61,371 nucleotides of DNA from Micrococcales bacterium. Its GTDB lineage: Bacteria > Actinomycetota > Actinomycetes > Actinomycetales > Cellulomonadaceae. The notes beneath the pieces were generated by a model. It was not told the DNA's origin, made no database searches, and worked only from the letters and a program-made list of their open reading frames with translations. Position 1 is the stretch's first letter; each line of letters opens with the position of its first letter. The position numbers and the translations under genes were made by a program. Shown in pieces: positions 11,096 to 51,816 of the stretch. The stretch spans positions 1 through 61,371 of the forward strand of contig WRET01000010.1 in the NCBI GenBank assembly GCA_009779195.1, given 5' to 3'.

Positions 11096-11487
11096 AGCTC
11101 ACTAACCTGGTCAATGGCACCCTGAACGCGCCGTCCAGAAAAGTCGACGAGTTGAGTAGAGTCACCATGCGGCGTCTCATGCCGAAGATCCCGCGGCCAT
11201 TTTTGCGGCTGCTGATGGATCTCTGCATACCACATGATCATCGGAACGTCCGTGTTGCGACGTAGCCCTTTCACTCGTTTGGCCTCAGCGACGATAACTT
11301 GTTCGTTCCACGAACCGCGCCAGAAGTTGTTCACCAAGATAGCGTCTCGCGCGTTCACCGATCTTTCAGCAGCAGACAGGGACGTGCCGCAGGACAGTAA
11401 TCTGCGCGGTGCCCACCACGCAGGACCCCGCGTTTCACGCGCGACCGTCGTTATCGCCCACCGTCCTGCTCGCGCCCGCTGTCGTGC
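11096..11487. other. Leader gap between the SipW operon and the adhesin gene
   Basis: About 390 nt of lower GC. An 88-codon open frame on the minus strand (11092-11358) ends with an ATGA overlap onto the adhesin start. Its product has no recognisable domain or signal peptide and its codon use is unlike its neighbours, so I do not call it a gene. No clear terminator or promoter was seen. Confidence 0.4.
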
Positions 11488-35413: not shown

Positions 35414-37531
35414 CTATCCGCCGTTCATGACGTGGGTGAGAGAGATGAGCCGGGGGTTGGACAAGAGGTCTTCGATGGGGACGAGGGCACCTGAAGAGTC
35501 GGCCAGGGGGACTTTCCAGTTGGGGTACTCGCCGTCGGTGCCCGGTTGGTTCTGGGCGCGGCGTTCACCGACGGCGTCGGCCAGGGAGACGCCGATGAGG
35601 ACCGACGGGGTGTCGAGGATGTAGCGGTGCATGGCTTCGACGATGGCCCGTTCGGACGCGCCCTCGGAGATCAGGCCACGCTGCTGCAGCGTGCGCAGGA
35701 CCGCGTCGCGTTCGGCAGCGGCACGGGCACGCACCACGGAAGCAGACTCGGTGAGAAGGCCCAGGCGTTCGCGCAGGGCGACGTGCTCGCCAGCGAGGTA
35801 CCCAGCGGTGGGAGGCAGGTCGTGGGTGGTGACCGACGCCAGCTGCAGGCGGCGCCACTGCTCGGGCGGACGGGGCCGGCCCTGGTCGTTCTCGAACCAC
35901 AGCACCCCGGTGCCCAAGATGCCGCGGTCGGCCAGGTACTCGACCACCCACCCCTCGACGGTGCCGAGGTCCTCGCCGATGAGCACGACCCCGGCACGCT
36001 GCGCCTCGAGCATGAGGATGCCGACCATGGCGTCGTGGTCGTAACGCACGTACGCGCCGTCGGCGGGTTTGTGGCCTGAGGGGATCCACCACAGCCGGAA
36101 CAACCCCAGGACGTGGTCGAGGCGCACAGCACCCGCGTGGCGCAGGACCGTGCGCAGCATGTCGCGGTAGGGCCGGTAGGACGCCCGGGCCAGCTCGTCA
36201 GGGTGCCACGGGGGTTGCGACCAGTCCTGGCCCTGCTGGTTATACATGTCTGGGGGTGCGCCGACTGTCGCGCCAGAAGCCAGCACCGAACCCAACGACC
36301 ACACGTCGGCCCCGTCGATATGCACCCCGACGGCCAGGTCGTGCATGATGCCCAGCACCATTCCCGCGTCCACGGCGGTCTTCTGGGCGGCGGCGAGCTG
36401 TTCGTCGGCGATCCACTGCAACCAGGTGTAGAACTCGACCCGCTCGGCCAGCTGTCCGCGCAGCTCGGCCACCGCCGGGCTGGACGGGTCACGGGCCTGC
36501 TCAGGCCAGTCCGACCCGTCGAAGTGCTCGGCCAGGGCGCACCACAAGGCGAACGTGCTCAGGCCCTGGCCCTCGTCGGCGACGTACCGGTCGAACTCCG
36601 CCTGGCGCGCCGCCGACCGCTTGACGCCGAACACGACATCCAAGGCCGCACGTTTGGCCGTCCACACCGCGTCGCGGTCCAGAGGCCCCGAGTCGGTGTT
36701 CAGCGCTTTGGCAGGTTCCCCGGCCCACTCCACCAAGGCCAGGTCTGCTGAGGTCAGGTACGCGGTCTCGCGGATGTCCTCCACGCGGATGTACATGGGG
36801 TTGACGAAACGGCGGGTCACCGGCAGGTACGGACTTGGGGTGACCGGCACCACCGGTTCGGCAGCGTGCACCGGGTTGATCAGGACGAAATCGGCGCCCA
36901 TCCGGCCGGCCTTCTCCGTCAGGTCGGCCAGGTCGGAGAAGTCCCCCAAACCCCACGAGCGTCCCGAGCGCACCGAGTACAGCTGCGTCATCAGCCCCCA
37001 GGCACGGGTGTCGGCCACAGTCTCAGGCAGGTCCAGGTGGTGCGGGACGACCACGAGCGTGGCCCGCGCCTGGGCGCTGGGACCGGTGGCGCGTATCTCG
37101 TGCCAGCCCAGCGGCAGGTCGGTCGGAAGGTCGAACGACGCGCGCGCGACCAGCCGCCCGTCGACCTTGCGCGGTTTGGTGGCCACGTCGGCCTGGATCA
37201 GGTCGACACGCCCGCCGCCGGTCTCGTCCTCCAGGTCGACCCAGCAGATCACCGGGTCGCCGTGGGTCACGTGCACCGGCAGCCTGGCCGTCTTGCCCGC
37301 GGTGAGCACGACCACCGGCGGCAGTGTGTGGCGCCAACGCTCGTCGGTGCGCAAGGCCAGGGCCCGGTCCACCTTTTCTGGTGTGGAGGCGTCGACCCCG
37401 AGGGCTGCCAGCACCCCCACGAGGGTCTCGCTCGACACGTGCACACGCTGGCCGGCGTGGTTCACATGCTCGTGGGAGATGGAGTACTCGTGCGCCAGGC
37501 GTACGAGAGTTTCAGACGGCTGCGCGGTCAC
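35414..37531 (-). CDS. malQ: 4-alpha-glucanotransferase (amylomaltase, GH77)
   Basis: 705 residues. Transfers alpha-1,4-glucan segments between maltodextrins, for use of maltose or glycogen. The N-terminal 170 residues are the extra domain found in actinobacterial MalQ. The GH77 barrel shows the nucleophile in VRLDHVLGLFRLWW, the acid/base Glu in VLIGEDLGTV and the third Asp in VTTHDLPPTAGYL. SRSGRSWGLGDFSDL-type and GIMHDLAVGVHIDGADVW segments are also typical. GTG at 37531 has AGGA 8 nt upstream; a longer frame to 37624 is less likely. Confidence 0.94.
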   Translation of the reverse strand: MTAQPSETLVRLAHEYSISHEHVNHAGQRVHVSSETLVGVLAALGVDASTPEKVDRALALRTDERWRHTLPPVVVLTAGKTARLPVHVTHGDPVICWVDLEDETGGGRVDLIQADVATKPRKVDGRLVARASFDLPTDLPLGWHEIRATGPSAQARATLVVVPHHLDLPETVADTRAWGLMTQLYSVRSGRSWGLGDFSDLADLTEKAGRMGADFVLINPVHAAEPVVPVTPSPYLPVTRRFVNPMYIRVEDIRETAYLTSADLALVEWAGEPAKALNTDSGPLDRDAVWTAKRAALDVVFGVKRSAARQAEFDRYVADEGQGLSTFALWCALAEHFDGSDWPEQARDPSSPAVAELRGQLAERVEFYTWLQWIADEQLAAAQKTAVDAGMVLGIMHDLAVGVHIDGADVWSLGSVLASGATVGAPPDMYNQQGQDWSQPPWHPDELARASYRPYRDMLRTVLRHAGAVRLDHVLGLFRLWWIPSGHKPADGAYVRYDHDAMVGILMLEAQRAGVVLIGEDLGTVEGWVVEYLADRGILGTGVLWFENDQGRPRPPEQWRRLQLASVTTHDLPPTAGYLAGEHVALRERLGLLTESASVVRARAAAERDAVLRTLQQRGLISEGASERAIVEAMHRYILDTPSVLIGVSLADAVGERRAQNQPGTDGEYPNWKVPLADSSGALVPIEDLLSNPRLISLTHVMNGG

Positions 37532-37591
37532 GGGAAGATCCTGCCACGACACGCTGAGCGCCGTCGCGATTTCGGCCCAATGAACCAACGC

Positions 37592-37618
37592 GGGAACATG
37601 CACCGCCTGTGGCGTGTC
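37592..37618 (+). promoter_or_regulatory. Candidate ECF promoter 1 (GGGAACAT)
   Basis: GGGAAC, 17 nt, then TGTC. It is one of four GGGAACAT motifs on the plus strand within gaps of this cluster. A start point near 37625 would be about 32 nt before the small open frame at 37657. Confidence 0.5.
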
Positions 37619-37656
37619 GAACACTCATGACGAGCACTTGCCGCCAGGAGAACACG

Positions 37657-37797
37657 ATGCCATCAGGACCTGTCGTGCGGACACGACTCAGCCGTACGCT
37701 CATAGCGGGCGAATGTCCCGCTATCGTCAGCACCGAGCGAGCCAGCGGAGCCCGCTCATCCGATCTGTGCACCTCGTGGGAAGGCGCTGAACAGTGA
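37657..37797 (+). CDS. Possible 46-residue leader ORF
   Basis: ATG preceded by AGGAG with 6-nt spacing. The stop overlaps the GTG of the next gene (GTGA). The product (MPSGPVVRTRLSRTLIAG and so on) has no known domain and only moderate coding bias. Its place, 32 nt behind a candidate promoter, and its coupling to the next gene suggest a translated leader. It may be chance. Confidence 0.35.
   Translation: MPSGPVVRTRLSRTLIAGECPAIVSTERASGARSSDLCTSWEGAEQ
37702..37724. promoter_or_regulatory. ATAGCGGG inverted repeat
   Basis: ATAGCGGG-N7-CCCGCTAT, perfect 8-bp arms, 70 nt upstream of the Pro-rich protein gene and inside the possible leader ORF. An mRNA hairpin or a dimer operator. Confidence 0.45.
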
Positions 37798-38543
37798 GTG
37801 ACGACCGGTCCCCCGCCCAACCACCGGACGACGACAACCGACCGACCGAGGCGATGATCCCCCCGACACCCCTCGGCACGCCACCAGCCCCACCCCCACC
37901 GACCACGCCACCACCGGTCCCACCGCCACCTGTGCAGGGACCGGGCGGGCCGCCAGCCGCTGGGCCCCCTCCCGCTGGGCCCCCTCCCGTTGGGCCCCCT
38001 CCCGCTGGGCCGCCGGACCAGGCGCCTGCCGTGCCAGGACCCGCCACCGAGGCTCTGCCGCCGGTCGCCGCCACCAGTGTGTTCACACCTGCCGACGCCG
38101 CGGCTTACGCACCAAGCTATTCCCCCGGCGGCGCCCAGGCGGGACCACCGCAGTCCTACGCGCCGCCTGGTATGGCGCTGGGAGCAGACCCAGCCCCCAA
38201 GGGCCCGCGGCGCGGGCTGGTGGCGATCGTTGTGTCTGTCGCCGCTGTCCTCGTCGTCGCTATGCTCGTCGTCCTGGCGGTGGTCTTGTTGAAGAGCGAC
38301 GACGAGGTGGTCTCACCTCCCGAGACGACCACGACCACGACCACGCAGGACCAGACCGAGCGCCGCCCCGAGACCGACCAGCCGACGATCGACCCGAGCG
38401 ACATGTTCGACCGGACCGACGGACCGTGGGACCGGACCAGACAACCGACCAGGGACCCAATATTCACCCCACGCACCCCCACCGTCCCGACGACCCCTGT
38501 GGTGCCCCGGCCCACGACACCACGCTGGACGCCAGGCCACTAA
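37794..38543 (+). CDS. Pro-rich single-pass membrane protein
   Basis: 249 residues. Residues 1-135 are almost entirely Pro, Gly and Ala, with repeated GPPPAGPPP units and a PPQSYAPP segment. One helix (LVAIVVSVAAVLVVAMLVVL) follows. The outside part (about 80 residues) is Thr/Pro/Asp-rich with TTTTTTTQ and looks unstructured. No catalytic domain is seen. The first gene of the stress cluster by position; the layout (Pro-rich inside, helix, outside tail) copies that of the Hsp70-like protein downstream. GTG start with GAAGG upstream. The function is unknown. Confidence 0.7.
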   Translation: MSDDRSPAQPPDDDNRPTEAMIPPTPLGTPPAPPPPTTPPPVPPPPVQGPGGPPAAGPPPAGPPPVGPPPAGPPDQAPAVPGPATEALPPVAATSVFTPADAAAYAPSYSPGGAQAGPPQSYAPPGMALGADPAPKGPRRGLVAIVVSVAAVLVVAMLVVLAVVLLKSDDEVVSPPETTTTTTTQDQTERRPETDQPTIDPSDMFDRTDGPWDRTRQPTRDPIFTPRTPTVPTTPVVPRPTTPRWTPGH

Positions 38544-38579
38544 AGTCACCCGGCCGCTGGCCACCAGGGCCCCACAGAC

Positions 38580-38606
38580 GGGAACATCTCACCCTTCAGA
38601 ACTATC
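38580..38606 (+). promoter_or_regulatory. Candidate ECF promoter 2, antisense to the sigma gene
   Basis: GGGAACATC, then TATC 17 nt after GGGAAC. It points into the 3' end of the ECF sigma gene, in antisense. A good AAGGAG and a GTG follow at 38629-38647. It may drive an antisense transcript that reads on into the GTPase operon. Confidence 0.45.
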
Positions 38607-38647
38607 TCAAGAGGCAGACCAGCCTAGAGAAGGAGCGCAGAACCGTG

Positions 38648-39223
38648 TCAGGACTCAGCCAACGCGGCGCGCAGCGCAGCACGAGCGCGGTTGAGCCTGC
38701 TCTTGACCGTCTGCACCCCGACCTGCTGGTGCGCCGCGATCTGCTCGTAGGTGAAGTCGCCGTACTCACGCAAGACCAGTGCTTCGCGGAAGTCCGGCGG
38801 CACGTGGCGCAGCGCCTGTGTCACCCGGTCACGCTCAGCGAGGGTGTGCTGGGGGTCGGCCCACTCGTCGGCGGTCTCGGGGATCGCATCGACCGCTTCT
38901 TCGCGACGACGGCGCACCTGCGCCAGCGCTGCGTTCGACGCGATCCGGTACAACCAGGTGGACACCGCAGAGTCACCGCGGAACCGGTCCAGGTTGCGCC
39001 AGGCTGCCAGCAGCGCGTCTTGCAGCGCGTCCTCCGCCAGGTAGTGGTCACCGGTGATCCTCAGGCACACACCCCACAGGGTGCGGCGGTGGGGTGTGAC
39101 CAGCTCTTCGAAGGCGTGCTGGTCGCCCGCACGGGCCCGCGAGAGCAGGTCACTATCAGATGGCATGGCCACGAAGGTCGATCTTCCGTGAGACGCAACG
39201 CGCCGAGTGGCGGCTGTAGACAT
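38648..39223 (-). CDS. ECF-type RNA polymerase sigma factor
   Basis: 191 residues. Region 2 is clear (GDQHAFEELVTPHRRTLWGV, then AEDALQDALLAAWRNLDRF and STWLYRIASNAAL), as is region 4 (LRHVPPDFREALVLREYGDF, TYEQIAAHQQVGVQTVKSRL). Region 3 is absent, as in the ECF group. No anti-sigma gene is adjacent: the neighbour on one side converges and the other diverges. It sits inside the chaperone/GTPase cluster and is the obvious candidate to read the GGGAACAT promoters (inferred). The start is uncertain: ATG at 39223 or ATG at 39166; neither has a strong ribosome-binding site. Confidence 0.9.
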   Translation of the reverse strand: MSTAATRRVASHGRSTFVAMPSDSDLLSRARAGDQHAFEELVTPHRRTLWGVCLRITGDHYLAEDALQDALLAAWRNLDRFRGDSAVSTWLYRIASNAALAQVRRRREEAVDAIPETADEWADPQHTLAERDRVTQALRHVPPDFREALVLREYGDFTYEQIAAHQQVGVQTVKSRLNRARAALRAALAES

Positions 39224-39278
39224 AGTGTCGCAGCCGGACCCGGTCGCACAGGGACTTCAAGAAAGAAAGATAGCTGAG

Positions 39279-39602
39279 ATGAACCACATGTCTGAAGACG
39301 GACGCCTCCTCGGCGATCCCCCAGCACCTCCTGACGAGGTCTGGAGCGCCGCGTTGGCCCACGCGTTCGACCCGTGGGCCGAGCCTGACGCGGCCATCTT
39401 GCCCGGTGACACCTACGACGGCGGTGTCTACGACGACGGCCTCGCCGCAGTCTTCGTCACCACCGACGACCCGGACACCGACGACGTGCACGGCGACACG
39501 CCCGACACGCCGTACGATGGCGACACCCCGGCGTTTGACGACGACCACGGGTACTCCGGCTACGACAACCCAGGCTTCGCCGACACTGATGACTATCTCT
39601 GA
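39279..39602 (+). CDS. Small Asp-rich protein of the GTPase operon
   Basis: 107 residues with more than 25 Asp, several Gly and Tyr, and almost no basic residues (DTDDVHGDTPDTPYDGDTPA). There is no signal peptide or helix. The stop overlaps the GTPase start by 14 nt, so the two are expressed together. I recognise no family. By position it resembles small partners encoded ahead of IniA-type GTPases, but no sequence similarity is claimed. The ATG at 39279 lacks a good ribosome-binding site. Codon use fits the region, so I think it is real. Confidence 0.65.
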   Translation: MNHMSEDGRLLGDPPAPPDEVWSAALAHAFDPWAEPDAAILPGDTYDGGVYDDGLAAVFVTTDDPDTDDVHGDTPDTPYDGDTPAFDDDHGYSGYDNPGFADTDDYL

Positions 39603-41496
39603 CCCTGCCAAGGCGGCACGCCGCCCGCTCGGCGCGCCCGTCCCTGGCGTCGCCCAGTCTGCCTTCCGCGACGTGCGCTCGTTCCTCAAGGCCAAGGCGT
39701 CCACCTCTGGCCTCGACCAGGTCATGGAGCAGATGAACCGCAGCCTGCGGGCGCTGCCGTCGGTGGTCATCGTCGGGGAGGTCGGGCGCGGTAAGTCCAG
39801 CCTGGTCAACGTGCTCGTCGGCTCGCCGAACCTGTCGCCGGTGGGTAACGGGGAGACCACCGGCACGTACCTGACGTTCGTCCCGCCGACCGACGACCTG
39901 CCGATCGGACGGGCCCGGATCCAGCTGGCCACCGGCGCCCACCTGATCAACACCTCCGAGCTGGCCGACTGGGTGCATATCAACGGCTCTCACCTGTCGG
40001 GCCCTGAGGCTGTCCCGGTGCTCGGCGCGACGGTCGCGGTGGAGTCGGCCCTGATGCCCGGAGTCATGGTGGTCGACACCCCCGGGTCGGGCGGGCTGAA
40101 CGAGGCTCACGCCCGTATGGCCATCTCCCAGGCAGAGACCGCGTCCGTGCTGGTCATGGTCACCGACGTGACCGCGCCACTGACCACCCCGGCGCTGGAC
40201 TTCCTGGGTTCGTGCTCCACACGGGTCGAGGCCGTCGTCGTCGCGGTGAACAAGACCGACCTGTCACGTAGCTGGGCTGACCGTGTCGAGGAGACCCGCA
40301 GGTCGTTGGCCACCCGCGGCGGGCAGTTCGCCGGGGTCCACGTCGTGGGTATCAGCGCCAACGACGCCGCCGCGGCAGCCACCTTGCCTGAGCACGTCGC
40401 CGCCCGCGCCCGGGCCCGCAGCGGTATCGACGAGCTGGTCGCCACAGTCACCGGCCTCATGGGCAACGCCTCGAGCGGCCCGGTGATCCAGGCCCTCAAC
40501 CAGTCGATCGCGCTCATGGAACCTGTGGTCACCAAGCTGCAGGGCGACCGCCAGGCCGCCACCGGCGACGAGGTGGACCTGGCTGAGCTGACGGCCAAAG
40601 AGGCCCAGCTCACCGCGCTGCAGTCGGTCGGCTCGGATATGCGCTACGACTGGGACCGCGACTGCTCGACCCTGCGCCGCAACCTCGAGGTCGAGATCGA
40701 CCTGCGCCTGGAGGATTTCGCCAACCGCTGGCAGGACCAGATCAACGACCACCGCTGGGGCACGTCGAAGAAGAAGCAGGCCACCTTGGCCGTCGACCTG
40801 CTCGCCGAGCTGACGATGATCGAAGCCGACGTCATGGAGGGGATGAACCGGCGCTTCGCCGAGCTCATCTACCGGCTGTACTCCAACATCGGGCTGGCCC
40901 CCAGCCCCCAGCTGATGATGGACCTGGCAGCCGAGCGCGACGCTGTGGCAGCGCTCAACGCGAGCGTCCAGGACCAAGGCGCCGATATGGACCTGTCGAT
41001 GTTCATGTCCGGGATGATGGGTTTCAGCCTGTCCGCCCAGCTGGGCCAGCTCGGGATCGCCGGGTCGACCTTGGCGGTGGGGGCGGTGGCGCTGCCGGTC
41101 GTCACTCTCGTGGGCGTCGCCTGCGCTGGCGTCCTGATCCCGGCCGGGATCATGGTCCGCGGCAACCAGAAACGCCGCCAGAACCTCGTGACGTTCCTGC
41201 GCGAACGGCGCGGAACGCTCCAGCGCCGTCTGACCCGGGCGTACACCTCGAGCTTCGACCTGCTGCGCTCGACGGTCCGCAAAGACTTCGACAACCAGCT
41301 CCAGGAGATGGTGACCCAGATCCGCGACCAGATGCAGATCGCCAAGAAGGCCGCCAACGAGACCCGCCAGCAGCGTGCCGACCGTCTGCGCGAGCTCGAC
41401 CACGACATCGAAGAAGCAGCGAAGGTGAAAAGGACCGCCAAGGACGCCATCATCAAGCTCCGGGCCGCAGCGCTCGAGGGCCCAGAACCGGCCTAA
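39589..41496 (+). CDS. Dynamin-like GTPase (IniA type)
   Basis: 635 residues. GTPase domain with G1 P-loop GEVGRGKS at 63-70, G3 DTPGSGG at 163-169 and G4 NKTD at 221-224. A helical stalk region follows, then a hydrophobic hairpin of about residues 485-520 (STLAVGAVALPVVTLVGVAC, then VLIPAGIMV), which is the likely membrane-insertion paddle. The C-terminus returns to charged helices (long coiled-coil). Bacterial dynamin-like proteins bind and remodel membranes; mycobacterial IniA/IniC are induced by cell-wall drugs and form a related pair. A second such GTPase lies three genes downstream, consistent with a hetero-pair. ATG at 39589 overlaps the previous gene. Confidence 0.88.
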   Translation: MTISDPAKAARRPLGAPVPGVAQSAFRDVRSFLKAKASTSGLDQVMEQMNRSLRALPSVVIVGEVGRGKSSLVNVLVGSPNLSPVGNGETTGTYLTFVPPTDDLPIGRARIQLATGAHLINTSELADWVHINGSHLSGPEAVPVLGATVAVESALMPGVMVVDTPGSGGLNEAHARMAISQAETASVLVMVTDVTAPLTTPALDFLGSCSTRVEAVVVAVNKTDLSRSWADRVEETRRSLATRGGQFAGVHVVGISANDAAAAATLPEHVAARARARSGIDELVATVTGLMGNASSGPVIQALNQSIALMEPVVTKLQGDRQAATGDEVDLAELTAKEAQLTALQSVGSDMRYDWDRDCSTLRRNLEVEIDLRLEDFANRWQDQINDHRWGTSKKKQATLAVDLLAELTMIEADVMEGMNRRFAELIYRLYSNIGLAPSPQLMMDLAAERDAVAALNASVQDQGADMDLSMFMSGMMGFSLSAQLGQLGIAGSTLAVGAVALPVVTLVGVACAGVLIPAGIMVRGNQKRRQNLVTFLRERRGTLQRRLTRAYTSSFDLLRSTVRKDFDNQLQEMVTQIRDQMQIAKKAANETRQQRADRLRELDHDIEEAAKVKRTAKDAIIKLRAAALEGPEPA

Positions 41497-41515
41497 CAAC
41501 CCGGTGGCCTGGGCG

Positions 41516-41521
41516 TATCCT
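41516..41521 (+). promoter_or_regulatory. Possible -10 box of a leaderless kinase mRNA
   Basis: TATCCT lies 6 nt before the ATG of the kinase gene, which has no ribosome-binding site. That spacing puts the transcript start at the ATG itself, as for leaderless actinobacterial genes. No clear -35. Confidence 0.35.
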
Positions 41522-41527
41522 ACAACT

Positions 41528-42430
41528 ATGACGGTCCCCCAGCAGGAACCGCCGCGCGTCCGCGGTGCGCTTCCTGCTGTGCTGGGCAGGCGCTACGAGC
41601 TGGGGCCTTCGATCGGCCTGGGAGCCTCCGCCCAGGTCCGCATCGCCCAGGACCTGCACCTGGACCGCACAGTGGCGGTCAAGGTCCTGCACACCACAGC
41701 GCGCGAGTCGACCCTGGCGCGGTTCCGCCGTGAGGCACAGATCGCCGCCACGTTCAACCACCCGGCGATCGTCGCGGTGCTCGACAGCGGCGACGAGATC
41801 CTCGATGACGGGACCCACCTGTGGTACACCGTCATGGAACACGTCGAGGGCAGGACCGTCCGTGATGTGCTCGCTGGCGGCCCGCCGCCGCTGGCCGTGA
41901 CGCTGGGGATCCTCGAATGGGTGCTGGCAGCGCTGGAGGTGGCGCACGCCGCGCAGGTGGTGCACCGCGACATCAAACCTGCGAATGTCATGATCACCGT
42001 CTCTGGTGTGGTCAAAGTCATGGACTTCGGTATCGCCCGGGTGGTGGGCTCGACCTCGCCACGGGTGACCCAGACCGCTGCGGTCGTCGGCACAGCACGG
42101 TACCTGTCACCTGAGCAGGCGGCCGGCGGTCCGGTCGACACCCGTGCCGACCTGTACGCCGTGGGCTGCTTGGCCTTCGAGCTGCTCACCGGTCGGCCAC
42201 CCTTCGTGGCGCCGACCACAGTCACCCTCATCTACCAGCACCTGCACGCGCCTGCGCCGGTCCCTTCGTCGTTGGACCCAACCATCCCCGAGGCGCTGGA
42301 CCAGATCGTGGCCACAGCCCTGGCCAAAGACCCAGCCGACCGCTACCGCAACGCCACACTGATGCGAACCGCCGTACGCACCGCGATGGCCGGTGCCAAT
42401 GATGCTGCGGTCCTGGCGTCAGCGCGATAG
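41528..42430 (+). CDS. Soluble Ser/Thr protein kinase (PknB-like catalytic domain only)
   Basis: 300 residues. Active Hanks-type kinase motifs: Gly-rich loop GLGASAQV at 30-37, Lys52 in VAVKVLH, Glu69, HRDIKPAN at 146-153, DFG at 166-168, and the activation segment ending in GTARYLSPEQ. The domain fills nearly the whole protein; there is no membrane helix, PASTA or other sensor domain. It must therefore be guided by partners. It lies between the two GTPases and the chaperone genes, whose Thr-rich tails are possible substrates (inferred). Start 41528 gives a leaderless message; an upstream ATG at 41504 is less likely. Confidence 0.92.
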   Translation: MTVPQQEPPRVRGALPAVLGRRYELGPSIGLGASAQVRIAQDLHLDRTVAVKVLHTTARESTLARFRREAQIAATFNHPAIVAVLDSGDEILDDGTHLWYTVMEHVEGRTVRDVLAGGPPPLAVTLGILEWVLAALEVAHAAQVVHRDIKPANVMITVSGVVKVMDFGIARVVGSTSPRVTQTAAVVGTARYLSPEQAAGGPVDTRADLYAVGCLAFELLTGRPPFVAPTTVTLIYQHLHAPAPVPSSLDPTIPEALDQIVATALAKDPADRYRNATLMRTAVRTAMAGANDAAVLASAR

Positions 42431-42466
42431 GCGGCCTAACCTACGGTGTGCGATCTTCGGCGCGCA

Positions 42467-42494
42467 GGGAACATCTGCAGCGCACCGATGACTC
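42467..42494 (+). promoter_or_regulatory. Candidate ECF promoter 3 (GGGAACAT)
   Basis: GGGAACATC followed after 18 nt by ACTC. It lies 70-97 nt upstream of the GrpE-like gene, so this promoter could drive GrpE-like, second GTPase and Hsp70 genes. Confidence 0.5.
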
Positions 42495-42563
42495 TCACTG
42501 CGAAAGCTGGGTTGCGCCCCCCGACGCCCGGCTTCCATCGACCTGACGGAGGGAAGCTCCACG

Positions 42564-43229
42564 GTGGAACCACCAACCCCTAACCCCAAGAACCCCACTT
42601 TTCCTGCCCCCGACACCCTGGTCGACCCCACACCGACCAAGAGCCCCGGTTCGAACGACTTCATCGACCAGATCGAAGAACAGATCGACGAACAGATCGA
42701 CGAGGAGCTCGCCAACACCCCCACCCCGGCCGTCACCGTGACCGTGACCGCCCCCGCCCCCGTACCCGTGCCCGCGAGCAGCGACGGCTCGACCAGCCTG
42801 CTCACAGGGGTGCTCCCGTGGACGCTCGTCGTGGTGCTCCTCGTCGCTGCTGGTGGTATGGCCGCGATGGCGTTCGGACGGCGCAACCGCCCGGCCCCTG
42901 CCCCCATGGTGGTGCCGGTGGCACCGGACCCGTCCACCTCGTCGGTGGTCCCCGAGCTCATCACCCTTGCCGACCTCATCACGACCCCCGCCGCCCAGAC
43001 CCAGGTGCTCCGGGCCTTGCGCACCGTCGGTGTCGAACCGGTCGACGCCGTGGTCGGCGACCCGTTCGACCCTGAGGTGCACGAGGCCGTGGCGACGCGT
43101 CCGGCCGAAGACCCCAACCAGAACGGGACGATCGCCGTCGTGCACCGCGCCGGGTGGCGCAGCGCCCACGGTGTCGTGCGGCCCGCCGGTGTCGAGGTCT
43201 GGATGGTCGACGCCACCGACGGAGTGTAG
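42564..43229 (+). CDS. Membrane-anchored GrpE-like nucleotide exchange factor
   Basis: 221 residues. The N-terminal part has an acidic helix (IDQIEEQIDEQIDEELAN, 34-51) and a Pro/Thr-rich stretch. One helix (about 79-104) is followed by RRNR. The C-terminal 75 residues match the GrpE beta-domain: VGVEPVDAVVGDPFDPEVHE, then VHRAGWR and VVRPAGVEVWMV. GrpE releases ADP from DnaK. The positive residues after the helix put the GrpE-like part inside the cell, where the ATPase domain of the nearby Hsp70 must also lie. The long dimerising helix of GrpE is missing. GTG start with GGAGGGAAG upstream. The assignment is by pattern, not by search. Confidence 0.75.
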   Translation: MEPPTPNPKNPTFPAPDTLVDPTPTKSPGSNDFIDQIEEQIDEQIDEELANTPTPAVTVTVTAPAPVPVPASSDGSTSLLTGVLPWTLVVVLLVAAGGMAAMAFGRRNRPAPAPMVVPVAPDPSTSSVVPELITLADLITTPAAQTQVLRALRTVGVEPVDAVVGDPFDPEVHEAVATRPAEDPNQNGTIAVVHRAGWRSAHGVVRPAGVEVWMVDATDGV

Positions 43230-43277
43230 AGACGTGTCTGACATGGTCACGCACGCGCGTCTTGGAGGCAGGCCCTG

Positions 43278-44693
43278 ATGTCCGACGACCCCATGACCAA
43301 CGCCATGCTGCGGTTGTGCAACACGATCGAGATGATCGGCGGCACACCCGCGCGCCCTGGCGTCGACCAGGCCCGGGCCCGGCTGCACGACGCGCACCTG
43401 CGCCTGGCCGTGGTCGGACGGGTGAAAGCTGGTAAGTCGACCCTCGTCAACGCCATCATCGGCCGACGTATCGCAGCCACCGACGAGGCCGAGTGCACGT
43501 CGATGGTCACCCACTACGCCTGGGGCGCCCCCGAACGCGGCGAGGTCCACCTGCGCGACGGACGGATCGAGCAGTTCGCCCTGGTGGACCGTCGGGTGCC
43601 CGACTCTGTGGGCTACCCGCCCTCGGAGGTCTCGCACCTGGTGGTGTTCCTCCAAGAGTCGGCGCTGCGCGACTTCGCGCTCATCGACACCCCTGGGCTG
43701 GCGACGACGACGACCGCCAACGACGAAGCCACCCGCCGCGCCATGCTGGAGGCACGCCAGGCCGACGCCTTGGTCTACGTGTTCCGCGACGTGTCCCGTG
43801 CCGACGACGTGGAGGTCCTGCGGGACTTCACGGAGGTCTCCGGCCGGGCCACGACCGGTGCTGGCGAACCCTCGTCGGCGATCGGCGTGCTGTCGCACGC
43901 GGACACGTTCGGCGCGGGCACCTGGGGCGAGACCGACCCGTTCGACGACGCCGGCGCGTACGCCGCGACGATCGCCGCCCAGCGCGCCGCCGAGCTGTCC
44001 ACGGTCATCCCCGTGTCGGGGCTCATGGCCCAGTCCGTGGCGACCGGGCAGGTCACCGAGAACGTCACCCGGGCCCTGGGCTCGTTGGTCAGCCTCGACG
44101 AAGCCGAGCTGCGCTACCCCGACGACGACCAGGCCCGTGCCATCGACACAGCCGCGACCGTCCTGGGTGACTACGGGGTGCGGTACGGGCGTTCTGTGGC
44201 CGCAGCAGGTTCTGGGTCCCTGTCGGAGTGGCTGTCCACCCGGTCCAACGAGCACGCACTGCGCCGTGCGCTGCGCGACCGGTACGTGGGCCGTCACCGC
44301 CAGCTCAAAGGCCGTCAGGCTCTGAACCTGCTCACCCAGGTCGCCAACGCCGCCGGGCCGTTGCACTGGCAGATGTCCCAGGCCATCTCTGAGGCGTTGC
44401 TCTCTCCCGAGCTGCACCCCTTGGCCGAGCTCAACGCTTGGGAAGAGCTGCGCTACTCGGCACCGAGCCACCCGGTGGTCGCCACGCTGGAACGGCTGAC
44501 CTCGGCACCCGACGACGCCCGCCGGGTGGGCCTGGGCCCGTCTGCCGACTCCACGGCGATCCGCAAAGAGGCGATCAAGGCTGTGAACCAGGCCCGCGCC
44601 GACGCGTCGCTGGCGATCACCCCTGGGCTGGCATCGGCGTGCACCATCTTGGAGCGCTCATTCACCCTCATCGCACACCGGCAGTCCATGTGA
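43278..44693 (+). CDS. Second dynamin-like GTPase (IniC type)
   Basis: 471 residues. P-loop GRVKAGKST at 47-55 and G3 DTPGLA at 137-142 are intact. The usual G4 NKxD is replaced by SHAD at 206-209, so guanine specificity may be weaker. The rest is helical, and there is no obvious membrane hairpin, unlike the first GTPase. This split, one paddle-bearing and one paddle-free, is also the pattern of IniA and IniC. ATG with GGAGG 9 nt upstream. Located between the GrpE-like and Hsp70 genes. Confidence 0.87.
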   Translation: MSDDPMTNAMLRLCNTIEMIGGTPARPGVDQARARLHDAHLRLAVVGRVKAGKSTLVNAIIGRRIAATDEAECTSMVTHYAWGAPERGEVHLRDGRIEQFALVDRRVPDSVGYPPSEVSHLVVFLQESALRDFALIDTPGLATTTTANDEATRRAMLEARQADALVYVFRDVSRADDVEVLRDFTEVSGRATTGAGEPSSAIGVLSHADTFGAGTWGETDPFDDAGAYAATIAAQRAAELSTVIPVSGLMAQSVATGQVTENVTRALGSLVSLDEAELRYPDDDQARAIDTAATVLGDYGVRYGRSVAAAGSGSLSEWLSTRSNEHALRRALRDRYVGRHRQLKGRQALNLLTQVANAAGPLHWQMSQAISEALLSPELHPLAELNAWEELRYSAPSHPVVATLERLTSAPDDARRVGLGPSADSTAIRKEAIKAVNQARADASLAITPGLASACTILERSFTLIAHRQSM

Positions 44694-44783
44694 TGCCGAC
44701 GACACGAAGCCGCGCTCTTGCAGAACCAGTGGCACCCACCAGTGCCCACCTGCAAGTTTCCGCGGCACCACGACACCACCACA

Positions 44784-44806
44784 CTGGCAGGTTTAGCGCC
44801 TGCCAG
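44784..44806. promoter_or_regulatory. Stem-loop in the leader of the Hsp70-like gene
   Basis: CTGGCAGG-TTTAGCG-CCTGCCAG, a perfect 8-bp stem 57 nt upstream of the start. It resembles neither CIRCE nor the HspR HAIR element. It could be a 5' UTR hairpin or an operator. Confidence 0.4.
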
Positions 44807-44862
44807 GTGCCATGGGCAAGACTGAGGCTGCTGCGAACCGGCGGCCATGACCAAGAGGAGAC

Positions 44863-47049
44863 ATGACAGTGGCGGGATGGATCTTGGCCGTCGACTTCGG
44901 GACGGTGAACACAGGGGCTGCCATCCGTTTCCCCGACGGCAGGGTGGACAAGGTCAAGCTTGACCCGAACTCTGACACCATGCCGTCGGCCGTCGTGGTG
45001 ACCGACGGCAAGTGGCGGGTCGGGCAGGCTGCGCTCAACGCCCGGCGTACCCACCCGGACACGTTCATCGGTTCGCCCAAAGCCCGGCTGGGCCAAGAAC
45101 CCCTGGTGCTCGGCGACGACCTGGTCAGCCCCGCCCAGATCGCCTCGCACGTGCTGACCGCCGTGCACGAGCGGGCGGTCCGCGCGGCCGGAGGCACCGA
45201 ACCGGACCGGCTCGTGCTGACCCACCCGGTGCGCTGGGGCCGGGCCCGGCTGACTGCCCTGCAAGAAGCCGCCCAGATCGCAGGGTTCTCCTCCGACAAC
45301 ATCCGGCTGCTGCCTGAGCCGATCGCCGCCCTGCACGCCCACGTCCCGCCTGGGTCGCTGCCGCCCGGGTCGCGTGTGGCAGTCGTCGACACCGGTGGCG
45401 GCACCTGCGACGTGGCAGTCCTGCAGACCACAGACGACCCGTCACCAGGCAAAGACCTGCTGGTCGTCTCGCAGGAAGGTGACGACCGCCTCGGCGGCAA
45501 CGACCTGGACGACCTGCTGTACCAGTGGGTCCTGGGCCAGCTGCGCACCTCAGGACGCACAGACATGGTCACGGCCCTGGCCGCCGCGGAGCACCTGGGG
45601 GCGGCCCTGACGTTGCTGGACGTGGTCCGTGCAGCCAAACAAGACCTCTCCGAGCACACCAACGCCCCCATCGCCGTGGCTGTCGGTGGCCAGGAGATCA
45701 CGCTGACAGTGACGCGTGAAGAGTACGAAGAGCTGATCGCCGAACCTATGTCACGTGCCGGGGCCCTGACCTCCCGGGCCCTGCAGGCGTCAGGCACCAC
45801 CAACCTCGCGGGTCTGTACCTGACCGGAGGCACCGCCTACACCCCTGCCCTGGCCCAGGCGCTGCACAAGGTCACCGGTATCCTCACCGCCCCTCTGGGC
45901 GACCCCAAGCTCGCAGTCGCCGTCGGCGCGCTCAAGACCCCCGTCGCCGTCATGACGCCGGCTGAGCTCAGCGCCCTGGCCCAACAGCTGGCCCAGCAGC
46001 GCGAACGGGGCTCCCAGCAGGCTCCTCCGCCTGTCCCGGTACCCCCACCGTCGCTGTCGATGGCGCAGTCACCGCCCCCAGCCGCCACACCACCCCCCTC
46101 GGCCGTCACACCAGCACAGTCACCGCCTTCAGCCGTCACACAGACAACCGGGCCGCGGCAGGCAGCCAGCGGTCCGCCGCGGGTGGGGCCGAGCGGCCCT
46201 CCCAGTGGGCCACCGACGGGCGGTGGGTACGCCTCGAACGCGCCGGGCTACCCGACGGCAGGGGGCCCGCCTCCCGGCCCGCCCAAACAAGACGTCCCGC
46301 CGGTCACCTACGCACCGAGCCCGCCGCCTTCGGCACCCAGCTACGCCCAGAACTACCCGGCTCCTGGTCGACCACTGGCTCCGATGGGTCCGCCCCAGGG
46401 CCCACCAGCAGGGTCGGGGGGTTCGGGCACAGGTGCCAAGGTCGCACTCGGTGCCGGGATCGGCGTGGTCGTCCTGCTCGTGCTGGGTTTCGCCGGTTGG
46501 TGGTTCTTGCTGCGCGACCCTGGCACGACGACGGCCACCTGCTGGGACGGCACCTCGTCAGAAGAACAGTGCCCCGACCTCTCGGGGAAGGCCGCCGCCC
46601 TCCACGCGTTCAAGCCCAAGGACCACGTCAACGAGTCCGACTGCGACCGTACGTCCGACTACGTCCCGACCGGCTACACCGACGCGTTCGTGTGCCGGCC
46701 CAGCGGCGACGGCACCGTGTTCCCCACCCGTTGGCCGAGCGTGCAGGCCGCCACCGACGCCTACGCCGGTTTCAACGACGCTGGCGGGTCCTTCACCGAC
46801 GCGGGCACGTGGAGCAACGCCGACGGTGACGAGATGGGCCGCAAGTGGGTGCTCGACCTGTCCACGACCTCTAATATCGACCTGACGGAACTGCCAGGCC
46901 AATACCTGTTCGTGTACTGCTACTCCGACGTCCCGTTCTGCATCGAGGGCTCGGGGCCCCAAAGCGGAGGGAACGCTGTGACCAATAACTTCCGCACCAT
47001 GACCAAACCCGAGGTCCGGGCACTCAAGGAGTACCTGGACAAGCAGTGA
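44863..47049 (+). CDS. Membrane-anchored Hsp70-like ATPase with extracytoplasmic domain
   Basis: 728 residues. Residues 1-370 are an Hsp70/DnaK ATPase domain: AVDFGTVNTG (phosphate 1), VAVVDTGGGTCDVAVL (phosphate 2) and LYLTGGTAYTPAL (adenosine). The normal peptide-binding and lid domains are missing. Instead there is a Gln-rich helix, a Pro-rich linker of about 140 residues, one helix (about 529-550) and an outer domain of about 175 residues with five or six Cys (ATCWDGTSSEEQCPDL). It could carry ATP-driven signals across the membrane or organise envelope work; that is inference. ATG with AGGAGAC. It sits with its likely GrpE-type partner. Confidence 0.88.
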   Translation: MTVAGWILAVDFGTVNTGAAIRFPDGRVDKVKLDPNSDTMPSAVVVTDGKWRVGQAALNARRTHPDTFIGSPKARLGQEPLVLGDDLVSPAQIASHVLTAVHERAVRAAGGTEPDRLVLTHPVRWGRARLTALQEAAQIAGFSSDNIRLLPEPIAALHAHVPPGSLPPGSRVAVVDTGGGTCDVAVLQTTDDPSPGKDLLVVSQEGDDRLGGNDLDDLLYQWVLGQLRTSGRTDMVTALAAAEHLGAALTLLDVVRAAKQDLSEHTNAPIAVAVGGQEITLTVTREEYEELIAEPMSRAGALTSRALQASGTTNLAGLYLTGGTAYTPALAQALHKVTGILTAPLGDPKLAVAVGALKTPVAVMTPAELSALAQQLAQQRERGSQQAPPPVPVPPPSLSMAQSPPPAATPPPSAVTPAQSPPSAVTQTTGPRQAASGPPRVGPSGPPSGPPTGGGYASNAPGYPTAGGPPPGPPKQDVPPVTYAPSPPPSAPSYAQNYPAPGRPLAPMGPPQGPPAGSGGSGTGAKVALGAGIGVVVLLVLGFAGWWFLLRDPGTTTATCWDGTSSEEQCPDLSGKAAALHAFKPKDHVNESDCDRTSDYVPTGYTDAFVCRPSGDGTVFPTRWPSVQAATDAYAGFNDAGGSFTDAGTWSNADGDEMGRKWVLDLSTTSNIDLTELPGQYLFVYCYSDVPFCIEGSGPQSGGNAVTNNFRTMTKPEVRALKEYLDKQ

Positions 47050-47071
47050 CCACCCCGGCAGTCCAAGGGTC

Positions 47072-47099
47072 GGGAACATCCCGCCTGTCTGGTGCCATC
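47072..47099 (+). promoter_or_regulatory. Candidate ECF promoter 4 (GGGAACAT)
   Basis: GGGAACATC followed after 18 nt by CATC. A start near 47106 would be about 26 nt ahead of the C39-like peptidase gene, which has AAAGG 7 nt before its ATG. Confidence 0.55.
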
Positions 47100-47131
47100 A
47101 GATGGGCACGTCCTCGAAGAAAGGCAGAACC

Positions 47132-48328
47132 ATGGATTTCGACATCACCCCGACCAACGACGACGCACTCGGTGATTCCGCAGGTTGCGACGCTGGCGTC
47201 CCCGAACCGTACACCGTTCCTGACGTGCCCGAGTTCGGGGTCAACCAGGTCCAGGCTTACGACTGGGACGGCGACGGCATCAACGACTCGCTCGTCGGCT
47301 ACCTCGACGGTGTGGGCGCGTTCGACGCCACCGACCTGGACCAGGACGGCGACTTCGACTACCTGGCGATCGACACTGACGGCGACGGCGCCTACGACGT
47401 GCTGATCCTGGCCGATGGCGACACCGGCAACTACCTCATCCAGTGGGACTCTGACAACGACGGCACGCTGGACCAAGGGCAGATGGTCACCGGCGCGGAC
47501 ATCGCCGAAGCGTCCCCCCAGCTGTGGAACCTCATCAACGAGCACTACACCCCGCTGGACCTGCCAGTGGCACCTGAGATCTGGTATCCCGAGGTCCAAG
47601 AGGGCTGCATCGTCGGCGACCCGTTCCAGTACTCCGACGAATGGTTCGAGCAGTCGTTCAACGGCTCGTGCGTGCCAGCGTCGGTCGCGCAGATCTACAA
47701 CCTGTACACCGGTGGGAACGTCTCGGACCTCGACTTTGTCGAGCTGGCCAACCAGCTCGGCGGGGCTGGTGGTTCCACGGGTTGGATCGTGGGCCCCGAC
47801 GGCGCACCTGGCCTTCCTGCTGACGCTGCTGCGCTGATGCTCGAAGCCGCAGGTATCCCTGCCACCACCACCTACGGCTCGATGGACACCCTGGCCGAGG
47901 CTCTGGCCGAGGGCAACGCCGTCATGGTCGCGTTCGACTCCGGCGAGGTCTGGTACGGCGAAGAGGTCGAAGACAACACCGCCGACCACATGGCCGTCGT
48001 CGCAGCGATCGACTACGACGCTGGCCTGGTGTACCTGTCCGACACCGGCAACCCTGACGGCAACATGGAAGCCGTGCCGATCGAGGTCTTCATCGACGCG
48101 TGGGAAGACTCGAACTTCCTCATGGTCGAGTGCACCCAGTCGGTCACCGAGTTCCAAGAGGCCAACGGCATCGCCGTCGGCTCCGCCGCCGAAGCCCCCG
48201 CCGACGGGCACGGCGCCGGTCTGGTCGCCGAGGACACCATCGTCCACGCCACCAGCCACCAGTGGGCCCTGCTGCCGATCTCCGGCACCACCCTGGCCGA
48301 GGCCGCGGCAGCCCACCGCCAGGCCTGA
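47132..48328 (+). CDS. C39-like cysteine peptidase with Ca-binding-type repeats
   Basis: 398 residues, strongly acidic. Residues 40-115 hold four DxDxDG-type motifs (DWDGDGIND, DLDQDGDFD, DTDGDGAYD, DSDNDGTLD), as in dockerin or thrombospondin type 3 repeats that bind calcium. A papain-like C39_2 domain follows: Cys180 in NGSCVPAS, His286 in ADHMAVV and Asp304 in LSDTGNP, with Gln174 as a possible oxyanion residue. There is no signal peptide although Ca-binding repeats normally work outside the cell. It follows the Hsp70 gene and has its own candidate ECF promoter, and may be a substrate or effector of the system. Confidence 0.82.
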   Translation: MDFDITPTNDDALGDSAGCDAGVPEPYTVPDVPEFGVNQVQAYDWDGDGINDSLVGYLDGVGAFDATDLDQDGDFDYLAIDTDGDGAYDVLILADGDTGNYLIQWDSDNDGTLDQGQMVTGADIAEASPQLWNLINEHYTPLDLPVAPEIWYPEVQEGCIVGDPFQYSDEWFEQSFNGSCVPASVAQIYNLYTGGNVSDLDFVELANQLGGAGGSTGWIVGPDGAPGLPADAAALMLEAAGIPATTTYGSMDTLAEALAEGNAVMVAFDSGEVWYGEEVEDNTADHMAVVAAIDYDAGLVYLSDTGNPDGNMEAVPIEVFIDAWEDSNFLMVECTQSVTEFQEANGIAVGSAAEAPADGHGAGLVAEDTIVHATSHQWALLPISGTTLAEAAAAHRQA

Positions 48329-48338
48329 GACACCAGCA

Positions 48339-48374
48339 CCGAAGGCCGGTGGGGACACCCCCACCGGCCTTCGG
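48339..48374. terminator. Strong bidirectional terminator-like stem-loop
   Basis: Arms CCGAAGGCCGGTGGGG and CCCCACCGGCCTTCGG (16 bp, perfect) around a 4-nt loop, 10 nt after the C39 stop and 10 nt from the stop of the facing TPR gene. There is no T-tract, as is common in actinobacteria. It separates the two convergent operons. Confidence 0.8.
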
Positions 48375-48383
48375 TGTGTGTGC

Positions 48384-49214
48384 CTACCAGTCCTGGGGCA
48401 CCGGCCCGGCTGGGTCGTCACCACCAGGGCGACGGCCCCCGCCGGGGTTGGTCAGGTCGGGGGTGCCTCCGCCCTGGCGGAACTGCTCGGCGTCGGCGTC
48501 CGAACCGCGCTGGCGCTCTTCGAGCTCGCGCTGGCGCTGGCGCTCCAGGTCGTCGTCGCCGGACCCACCCTGGCCGTCCGGGTCAGGGTTCTGCGACGGT
48601 CCCGGCGGGGGGTCGTCGTCCGGGTCGGTGCACCGCGGGTCTTTGCGCAGCTGGCGTGCGTCGGTCACGGCCCGCAAGGCCTCGTCCGGGTCGGTGGTGT
48701 GCTCCGCCTGGGCTTCGTAGGCCAGGACGAGGTTCTCCAGCACCATGCAGTACTGGGCGTAACCGTCCTCCTCGACCTCAGGGACGGCGTCCAGGGCACG
48801 ACGCAGCGGCACGACGCCGTTCCAGCCTTCCCCGGCGAGCAACCTCACGGTCCCGACGTTGTAGTCAGCCCTCCACAGCTCGACCAGGTCGTTGTCAGCC
48901 ACCGCGTCGAGCCAGAAGTACCCAGGCCGTCCGCCAGCGTCCGCCGTGTGCGACGCCGAACGCACAGCAGGTCCGACCGCGACCATCGGCCAGGCGATCC
49001 ACACCAGCGCCGCGACGAATGGCGCCACCCCGGAGAACCAGTACAACCTGGCCACCAGAGCCCTGTCGCGCCGCTCTTGGCTCATCGACGCACGCAGCGC
49101 ACGACGTTCGGCCCTGCGCGCAGCCCAGCGCTGGGTTCTGGTGAGGACCGCCCCAGAACCGTCGTCCACAGCACCGTCGCCCACAGCACCGTCGCTCGCA
49201 GCACCGTCGCTCAT
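48384..49214 (-). CDS. TPR-like membrane protein of the MoxR/VWA operon
   Basis: 276 residues, last gene of the operon. An N-terminal Asp/Gly-rich and then Arg-rich region leads to a helix (FSGVAPFVAALVWIAWPMVA). After it comes a helical, TPR-like part (YNVGTVRLLAGEGWNGVVPL, LRRALDAVPEVEEDGYAQY). The C-terminal 90 residues are Pro/Asp-rich with a Gln/Arg/Glu coil. BatB/BatC-like genes in other MoxR operons have a similar place. The ATG at 49214 overlaps the VWA stop by one base; AGGAGG is 6-7 nt upstream. Confidence 0.75.
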   Translation of the reverse strand: MSDGAASDGAVGDGAVDDGSGAVLTRTQRWAARRAERRALRASMSQERRDRALVARLYWFSGVAPFVAALVWIAWPMVAVGPAVRSASHTADAGGRPGYFWLDAVADNDLVELWRADYNVGTVRLLAGEGWNGVVPLRRALDAVPEVEEDGYAQYCMVLENLVLAYEAQAEHTTDPDEALRAVTDARQLRKDPRCTDPDDDPPPGPSQNPDPDGQGGSGDDDLERQRQRELEERQRGSDADAEQFRQGGGTPDLTNPGGGRRPGGDDPAGPVPQDW

Positions 49215-51264: not shown

Positions 51265-51269
51265 CACCT

Positions 51270-51800: not shown

Positions 51801-51816
51801 AGCCGACCCTGACACA

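Follow-up and report, generated by a model that had tools for sequence, protein, structure and literature searches.

Introduction

Several described systems resemble parts of the cluster analysed here, nine genes in a 61,371-nucleotide (nt) stretch of DNA from a Micrococcales bacterium (contig WRET01000010.1; hereafter the window) that include those for two dynamin-like GTPases, a GrpE-like and an Hsp70-like membrane protein, a serine/threonine kinase and an extracytoplasmic function (ECF) sigma factor. In the iniBAC operon of mycobacteria two dynamin genes are adjacent, and IniA cuts membranes in vitro with GTP, according to the accessible portion of PMC6715688; neither that portion nor the accessible text of PMC5760070 mentions a link between Hsp70 and IniA or iniBAC. 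Cj-DLP1/2 are a heterotypic dynamin pair encoded side by side in an operon, for which the available parts of PMC6104087 mention no Hsp70 or GrpE partner. In chloroplasts, HSP70B, CDJ2 and CGE1 assemble and disassemble the membrane protein VIPP1 (PMC10602608, accessible sections), which is ESCRT-III-like (PMC8281802, accessible sections), so that, as proposed below for the window, Hsp70- and GrpE-type factors act on a membrane-acting polymer. That system differs in its J-protein partner and its VIPP1 client, and no dynamin is involved. It also uses a full Hsp70 and is not known to be encoded as a gene cluster.

The nearest published arrangement is that of the actinobacterial DO-GTPase/GAP1-N2 systems, whose components, according to the accessible part of Kaur et al. 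2020 (PMC7159879), comprise GrpE, HSP70 and also an HSP70 from which the peptide-binding domain is missing. As in the window, GTPases, often paired, lie near the membrane with these partners; the GTPases belong to another family, the word 'dynamin' does not occur in the accessible text, and in the window the Hsp70 itself carries the transmembrane (TM) helix. In the open PMC papers listed, no title or abstract opening describes Hsp70 or GrpE together with bacterial dynamins, and two further papers (PMC8195603 and PMC7016017) were, in their accessible parts, without bearing on the cluster.

Here we report that the cluster is a recurrent and apparently undescribed variant of the paired-dynamin operon. 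To our knowledge, the activation and recycling of bacterial dynamins are largely open questions, and the arrangement names candidate partners in a reduced GrpE and in an Hsp70 ATPase domain devoid of substrate binding. A dynamin pair beside a truncated membrane Hsp70 or a reduced exchange factor, as found across various actinobacteria, suggests a little-studied, ATP-switched membrane-remodelling machine. We give roughly even chances to the reading that the cluster encodes an actinobacterial membrane-remodelling system whose dynamin pair is controlled by a membrane-anchored Hsp70 ATPase domain serving as a nucleotide switch and not as a folding chaperone. If true, this would extend the role of Hsp70 from protein folding to transmembrane signalling, Hsp70-kinase fusions included.

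The Hsp70-like and GrpE-like proteins

The nine genes span positions 37794-48328. The ECF sigma factor is encoded on the minus strand, and the other eight genes lie on the plus strand in the order Pro-rich TM protein, Asp-rich protein of 107 amino acids (aa), dynamin 1, serine/threonine kinase, GrpE-like TM protein, dynamin 2, Hsp70-like TM protein and Asp-repeat/C39-like protein (Table 1). Pfam domains and sequence motifs confirmed that dynamin, kinase, GrpE-like, Hsp70, C39-like, Asp-rich and ECF genes adjoin one another, as a preliminary description of the stretch had claimed; the Pro-rich single-TM gene is a gene of the cluster region that it had left unnamed.

The Pfam HSP70 match covers only positions 107-368 of the 599-position profile and is followed by a Pro-rich linker and a TM helix. 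The phosphate and adenosine motifs of the ATPase are kept, since DFGTVN, DTGGGTCD and GGTAYTP align with the DnaK of the same genome. No substrate-binding domain was found in the window protein, the Pfam match stopping at position 368, and the 'chaperone machine' of the preliminary description is therefore unsupported; a nucleotide switch fits better. A model of the C-terminal domain, with a predicted local distance difference test score (pLDDT) of 81.2, weakly resembles the ectodomains of PknH and TiME.

The GrpE-like protein does have a GrpE-like domain and a membrane helix, as first described, with the helix N-terminal to the matched part, and the domain proved to be reduced to the head and beta wing: the GrpE profile matched only at positions 98-163 of 165, and the long N-terminal coiled coil of GrpE was not found in the window protein with the Pfam profile. 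AlphaFold2, run on a 22-row alignment of the domain, gave two helices and a beta wing (pLDDT 90.4), and all 11 PDB matches of this model at E ≤ 0.001 were GrpE chains. A sequence search against the PDB returned GrpE 4ani (E = 8.4e-5), and Pfam GrpE was above its cut-off in all six proteins tested at other loci (L066, L068, L073, L083, L131 and L136), at L073 by 0.1 bit. These matches and the model show the head and beta-wing fold that in GrpE binds the Hsp70 ATPase domain; binding and nucleotide exchange by the window protein are putative. One protein thus retains the nucleotide switch of Hsp70, and a second retains, from the exchange factor, the head and beta wing.

The two dynamins

Both dynamins have Dynamin_N domains and the GTPase motifs G1 and G3; at G4 dynamin 1 reads NKTD and dynamin 2 SHAD, the latter being non-standard. 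Their genes form a close pair on one strand with the kinase and GrpE-like genes between them. Among solved structures, dynamin 1 matched IniA alone (6j72, E = 1.7e-8) at E ≤ 0.01, by which the link to IniA drawn in the preliminary description holds at family level for this protein, and the dynamin-2 profile, A2, matched the bacterial dynamin 2j68 (E = 2.6e-16). The cluster thus shares with iniBAC the adjacent dynamin pair, a dynamin 1 that matches solved IniA, and acidic, repeat-rich proteins nearby, and differs from it in having an ECF sigma factor and not IniR, together with Hsp70, GrpE-like and kinase genes. No family match to IniB was found for the Asp-rich protein; the IniB queries used across the loci were two selected sequences. 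A search with the L036 protein at E 1e-10 found no IniR-type AAA/LuxR regulator in the window. We conclude that the cluster is not iniBAC as defined, the IniR-type gene not having been found and IniB being unproven.

The dynamins also match defence profiles. With PADLOC, dynamin 1 matched LeoA at 1.7e-13 and LeoBC at 5.5e-12, and dynamin 2 matched them at 2.0e-12 and 1.2e-8, all with low scores of 32-49 bits. These matches favour an anti-phage or conflict system, in which the dynamins would be LeoA/LeoBC- or DO-GTPase-like, Hsp70s with varied C-termini would be sensors, and the kinase and C39-like protein would be effectors or relays. The published DO-GTPase/GAP1-N2 systems with HSP70, GrpE and truncated HSP70 (PMC7159879, accessible part) point the same way, as do the approximately 11 diversified Hsp70 paralogues of the genome. 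However, the PADLOC matches of the kinase go to broad kinase profiles, and among the ten window proteins scanned we recognised no Leo gene set and no match to GAP1 (Pfam, E 0.1). Dynamin 2 scored 19.4 bits for DO-GTPase2 (cut-off 27) against 49.7 bits for Dynamin_N; judged by these scores, the cluster is not a DO-GTPase/GAP1 system. Housekeeping genes flank the two Microbacteriaceae loci that were scanned (L063 and L064), and ECF control is atypical for defence islands. We consider an anti-phage or other conflict function unlikely, though a serious alternative.

Recurrence of the neighbourhood

A search of named genomes with profile A2 gave at least 530 confirmed stretches, and the best 80 were used (the 80 loci). 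These were scored with our own profiles on six-frame open reading frames (ORFs); because several profiles were seeded from first hits in these loci, the counts are biased upwards, and 19 of the 80 hold <20 kb, where absences possibly reflect contig ends. Dynamin 2 is present at all 80 loci, dynamin 1 at 78, the GrpE-like protein at 39, Hsp70 at 30, proteins of the w9-type profile (C39/Asp-rich, which also catches Asp-rich repeat proteins) at 30, and ECF factors at 18. At L128 (Amycolatopsis sp. 2-2), one of the two loci scored without dynamin 1, the two dynamins share one open frame (7592-11479) near an Hsp70-TM gene. Most often the GrpE-like gene is situated between those of dynamin 1 and dynamin 2. 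An Hsp70 gene, a GrpE-like gene or both accompany the dynamins at 58 loci, and by genus label (n = 37) Hsp70 occurs in 21 and the GrpE-like protein in 17. One locus, L080, sits outside Actinomycetota (Dormiibacterota by label).

More independent tests are provided by loci without an ECF gene, by Pfam checks and by a class draw of 148 genomes taken evenly from the class, in which counts are among the matches listed, two of the lists reaching about E 2.5e-9 and 1e-29. Dynamin 2 was found at E ≤ 1e-12 in 25 of these genomes. In 16 of the 25 (15 of 24 without the window's own genome) an Hsp70 classed as non-DnaK by a score far above that of DnaK with the window profile (E ≤ 5e-41), not by a domain scan, lies within 15 kb, as compared with ~2.5% under crude random placement. 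Strong GrpE-like matches (E < 1e-17) occur in seven genomes and in six of them lie within 4.1 kb of dynamin 2; in the seventh, which has no dynamin-2 match, the GrpE-like gene lies <2 kb from an Hsp70-like gene (G155:C11:133793-136925). The class draw and the 58 loci bear out, outside the genus, the conserved neighbourhood foreseen in the preliminary description, as Hsp70 and/or GrpE-like genes with paired dynamins. In five genomes of family f22 (G059, G103, G136, G160 and G171) an Hsp70 gene of dnaK length is found 2.7-17.3 kb away from dynamin 2, and in four of them a GrpE match follows about 2 kb further on. Mycobacteria have a similar iniBAC-dnaK neighbourhood.

In a maximum-likelihood tree of 85 dynamin-2 rows, from which rows with <380 matched residues were left out and in which long branches, that of the window included, were flagged, the window falls in a 21-row clade (support 100/99). 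Its nearest neighbours are Microbacteriaceae, with a best identity of 45%, and the clade also holds rows from Spirilliplanes, Aeromicrobium, Rhodococcus, Gordonia, Williamsia, Millisia and Corynebacterium. Hsp70 is present at 18 of the 21 loci, w9-type proteins at 19 and ECF factors at 17. Dynamin 2 of the window lies outside an 8-row clade with L036; mycobacterial IniC is absent from the tree, and L039, L042 and L043 were too short for it. L036, which is outside the window's clade, also has a divergent Hsp70-TM gene, indicating that the Hsp70 link is not confined to that clade.

Within the genus of the window, dynamin pairs occur in six genomes; loci L037, L038, L040 and L041 fall in the other 8-row clade and the rest were too short. 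At these four loci, taken with L059-L061 (same-genus genomes G021, G023, G017 and G018), the dynamin pair is about 11-14 kb from an Hsp70-like gene, and the Hsp70 of L059-L061 has its TM helix at the extreme C-terminus. The GrpE-like query matched 17 of 58 genomes, the window's own and 35 others of its genus included; the 16 besides its own matched at E 2.5e-6 to 8.1e-4 and are probably canonical GrpE, one match even lying outside the GrpE region.

Fusions and the kinase

Fusions join the same components. In an Actinomycetes metagenome-assembled genome (L126), Pfam finds an Hsp70 ATPase domain and dynamin 1 in one ORF and a kinase domain and dynamin 2 in the next; in Candidatus Leucobacter sulfamidivorax (L068), one protein, likewise confirmed with Pfam, has dynamin 2 after a degenerate Hsp70 ATPase domain. 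By eye, HRD and DFG are altered in the L126 kinase and the phosphate motif is lost from the L068 Hsp70 domain, and these fused parts may therefore be scaffolds.

The three fusions bear on the possibility that the cluster is an iniBAC-type envelope-stress dynamin operon, with Hsp70, GrpE and kinase as co-regulated neighbours that are physically uncoupled from the dynamins. Dynamin pairs at L036, L039, L042 and L043 have neighbours that, on domain content, we take to be IniB-like, and at L036 also IniR-like, and co-regulation by one ECF factor could hold genes together without contact. Such uncoupling is at odds with fusions of Hsp70-like or kinase-like domains to dynamins; moreover, within the flanks fetched, no Hsp70 lies at 28 of the 39 GrpE-like loci and no ECF gene at 17 of the 30 Hsp70 loci. 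Since so many loci have one component without the other, co-regulation by the ECF factor cannot alone explain the linkage. An uncoupled operon of the iniBAC type therefore seems to us improbable.

VAVK, HRD and DFG are all kept in the window kinase. A search at E 1e-15 of the 80 best loci found a kinase near dynamin 2 only at L126, where it is the fused one with altered motifs. The phosphorylation control of the preliminary description thus rests on kinase fusions (L126 and those of the window's own genome, below), and the kinase gene (1/80 loci) is not a conserved member. Together with the C39 peptidase, the kinase is the least conserved part of the cluster. The Peptidase_C39_2 domain of the window protein scores 24.9 bits, barely above the cut-off of 24, with Cys and His motifs kept. 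The Asp-rich 107-aa protein matched no known family.

Hsp70 paralogues in the genome

Besides DnaK, the genome of the window (G000) holds 11 members of the family to which the Hsp70 of the window belongs. Their ATPase domains are 42-78% identical, and another piece lies on contig C40. Only the window copy was found beside dynamins in the stretches examined; the GTPase near the copy on contig C62 is a general MMR_HSR1 GTPase after YbeY, presumably Era. On contigs C2, C35 and C41 (L046, L047 and L048) Pfam identifies three fusions of an Hsp70 ATPase domain to a serine/threonine kinase; L046 ends with an F5/8-type NADase translocation domain and L048 with DUF6273. The 35 other genomes of the genus have one or two Hsp70 matches each at E ≤ 1e-20, except for one genome with none.

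These paralogues, three of them fused to kinases and all but the window copy found away from dynamins in the stretches examined, would be expected if TM Hsp70-ATPase proteins were stand-alone receptors that signal via kinases, the dynamin link being secondary. Consistent with this, all 16 other genomes chosen for having a dynamin and a GrpE-like gene without a flanking Hsp70 in the fetched stretch hold 2-14 Hsp70 matches elsewhere, DnaK included, the best per genome at about E 1e-51 or lower; many Hsp70 matches also occur in some dynamin-free genomes. Gene linkage and the dynamin fusions argue against stand-alone receptors, as does the presence of Hsp70 beside dynamins at 18 of the 21 loci of the window's clade, and we rate this the most doubtful of the alternatives, with little chance of being right.

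The ECF factor and a candidate promoter motif

The ECF sigma factor has both region 2 and region 4 (Pfam). The sequence GGGAACAT occurs four times in the window, always within the cluster region and in plus orientation, as compared with a mean of 0.82 in shuffled sequence, where four occurrences were reached in 1 of 100 shuffles. A fuller motif, GGGAAC-N14-17-[GC]CATC, was derived from the loci with an ECF gene, for which the loci without one are a fair control. It occurs at 32 sites in 19 ECF-positive loci (13 of the 19 have it), with 3 sites for the reversed pattern and 3.2 expected from a Markov model. In 62 ECF-negative loci we found 4 sites (reversed pattern 1, expected 5.9), in 10 relative loci 1 site, and in 12 loci of Hsp70 paralogues from the same genome none. 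Of 25 ECF-positive sites classed by downstream gene, 11 precede a w9-type gene and 5 dynamin 1, and 9 were unassigned. A looser pattern has 19 sites in the whole genome, two of them in the window, as compared with 4 for its control. The ECF-type promoter motif thus appears to go with the ECF gene, and transcription from it is presumed; the candidate motif offers a means to map the regulon. No anti-sigma factor was recognised among the scanned proteins, and an ECF factor controlled by the kinase without an anti-sigma factor was only considered.

A possible mechanism

The analogy to VIPP1 and IniA, taken with the fusions, leads us to propose a mechanism in which the dynamins are switched by the Hsp70 ATPase domain, itself reset by the GrpE-like protein. 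The divergent ECF factor would drive parts of the cluster from GGGAAC...[GC]CATC promoters, consistent with the motif counts. The C-terminal ectodomain of the Hsp70-like protein, on its predicted topology, would read the state of the envelope and set the ATP/ADP state of the cytosolic ATPase through a single TM helix. Where present, the GrpE-like protein, whose fold is recognisable, may eject ADP and so reset the switch. The switch would contact the dynamins, as the fusions suggest, and set their assembly or disassembly, and the dynamins, by comparison with IniA, may reshape or repair the membrane. The kinase and the Asp-rich and C39-like proteins might conceivably tune the system or be released by it. 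We infer both stress as the inducer of the cluster and all of these protein activities. More tentatively, and at somewhat less than even confidence, we suggest that the TM Hsp70 ATPase without substrate binding is an ATP-fuelled, GrpE-reset, ECF-induced controller of the dynamin pair, with which it would form a single membrane machine that links its ATP switch to fission or fusion of membranes powered by GTP. It would be a branch of a wider actinobacterial family of Hsp70-type receptors, some of them receptor kinases.

Several observations weigh against control of the dynamins by an Hsp70 switch. Hsp70 and the GrpE-like protein are both present at only 11 of the 80 loci and both missing at 22, such that neither is obligatory, and the GrpE-like protein occurs at only 6 of the 21 loci of the window's own clade. 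The arrangement of the window was not seen in the 35 other genomes of its genus that were searched. In the class draw, 4 of the 25 dynamin-2 genomes have no Hsp70 nearby among the matches listed and 5 have only a canonical dnaK-type gene, at the distances given above for family f22. By eye, the partner domain is degenerate in two of the three dynamin fusions, the full promoter motif is absent from 6 of the 19 ECF-positive loci and misfits at 3 of the 4 window sites, and of five profile-matched proteins tested at other loci, Pfam finds a C39 domain in that of L066 but not in those of L064, L065, L071 and L075, the last being DUF6802. Finally, profiles and promoter motif were built from loci that were then counted, which biases the counts in favour of the proposal.

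Layout of the region and flanking genes

Table 1 Features of the cluster and its flanks, in window coordinates
Feature	Position	Strand	Details
malQ, longest reading frame	35414-37624	-	Pfam; upstream neighbour
Candidate ECF-like -35 site GGGAACAT, then GTGTC	37592-37618	+	202 nt upstream of Pro-rich TM gene; inside 5' end of longest malQ frame; presumed promoter
Pro-rich single-TM protein, 249 aa, TM about 142-160	37794-38543	+	Membership uncertain
GGGAACAT site between genes	38580-38606	+	Next 400 nt downstream free of plus-strand genes
ECF sigma factor, 191 aa	38648-39223	-	Divergent from operon; Pfam Sigma70_r2 1.2e-18, r4_2 8.8e-14
Asp-rich small protein, 107 aa	39279-39602	+	14-nt overlap with dynamin 1 gene; no family match
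Dynamin-like GTPase 1 (IniA-like), 635 aa	39589-41496	+	Hydrophobic stretch near 499-517; Pfam Dynamin_N 1.3e-11; PDB 6j72
Soluble serine/threonine kinase	41528-42430	+	Pfam Pkinase 9.1e-43; catalytic motifs kept
GGGAACAT site	42467-42494	+	97 nt upstream of GrpE-like gene; -10 misfits motif; motif search
GrpE-like protein	42564-43229	+	TM 79-97 preceding head helices and beta wing; Pfam GrpE 6.2e-13
Dynamin-like GTPase 2, 471 aa	43278-44693	+	Pfam Dynamin_N 5.7e-13; profile A2 vs 2j68
Hsp70-like TM protein	44863-47049	+	ATPase domain (about 1-357), Pro-rich linker, TM 527-545, Cys-containing C-terminal domain; Pfam HSP70 2.4e-25
Putative ECF-like promoter GGGAACAT...CCATC	47072-47099	+	60 nt upstream of C39-like gene; sole window site with whole motif
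Asp-rich repeats, then C39-like peptidase domain	47132-48328	+	Pfam Peptidase_C39_2 3.3e-05
Inverted repeat, 27 nt, 85% complementary, 4-nt loop	48328-48385		Putative terminator
Two vWA genes and one DUF58 gene	49214-52764	-	Pfam; adjoin cluster

The preliminary description began the cluster at position 37592, which marks a GGGAACAT site within the 5' end of the malQ frame and not a gene. The inverted repeat after the C39-like gene is likely the terminator of the cluster. We regard as separate both malQ, which precedes the cluster, and the vWA and DUF58 genes, which follow it on the opposite strand. MoxR/vWA/DUF58-type genes were rejected as members of the system, being absent on the same side of L063 and L064, the two loci scanned for them; there, both loci have methionyl-tRNA synthetase and TatD, joined at L064 by a GHMP kinase and an rRNA adenine dimethylase. 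Genes for an eCIS-core-domain protein and a Pvc16-like protein lie close by at L037, where the system may therefore be connected with a contractile injection system.

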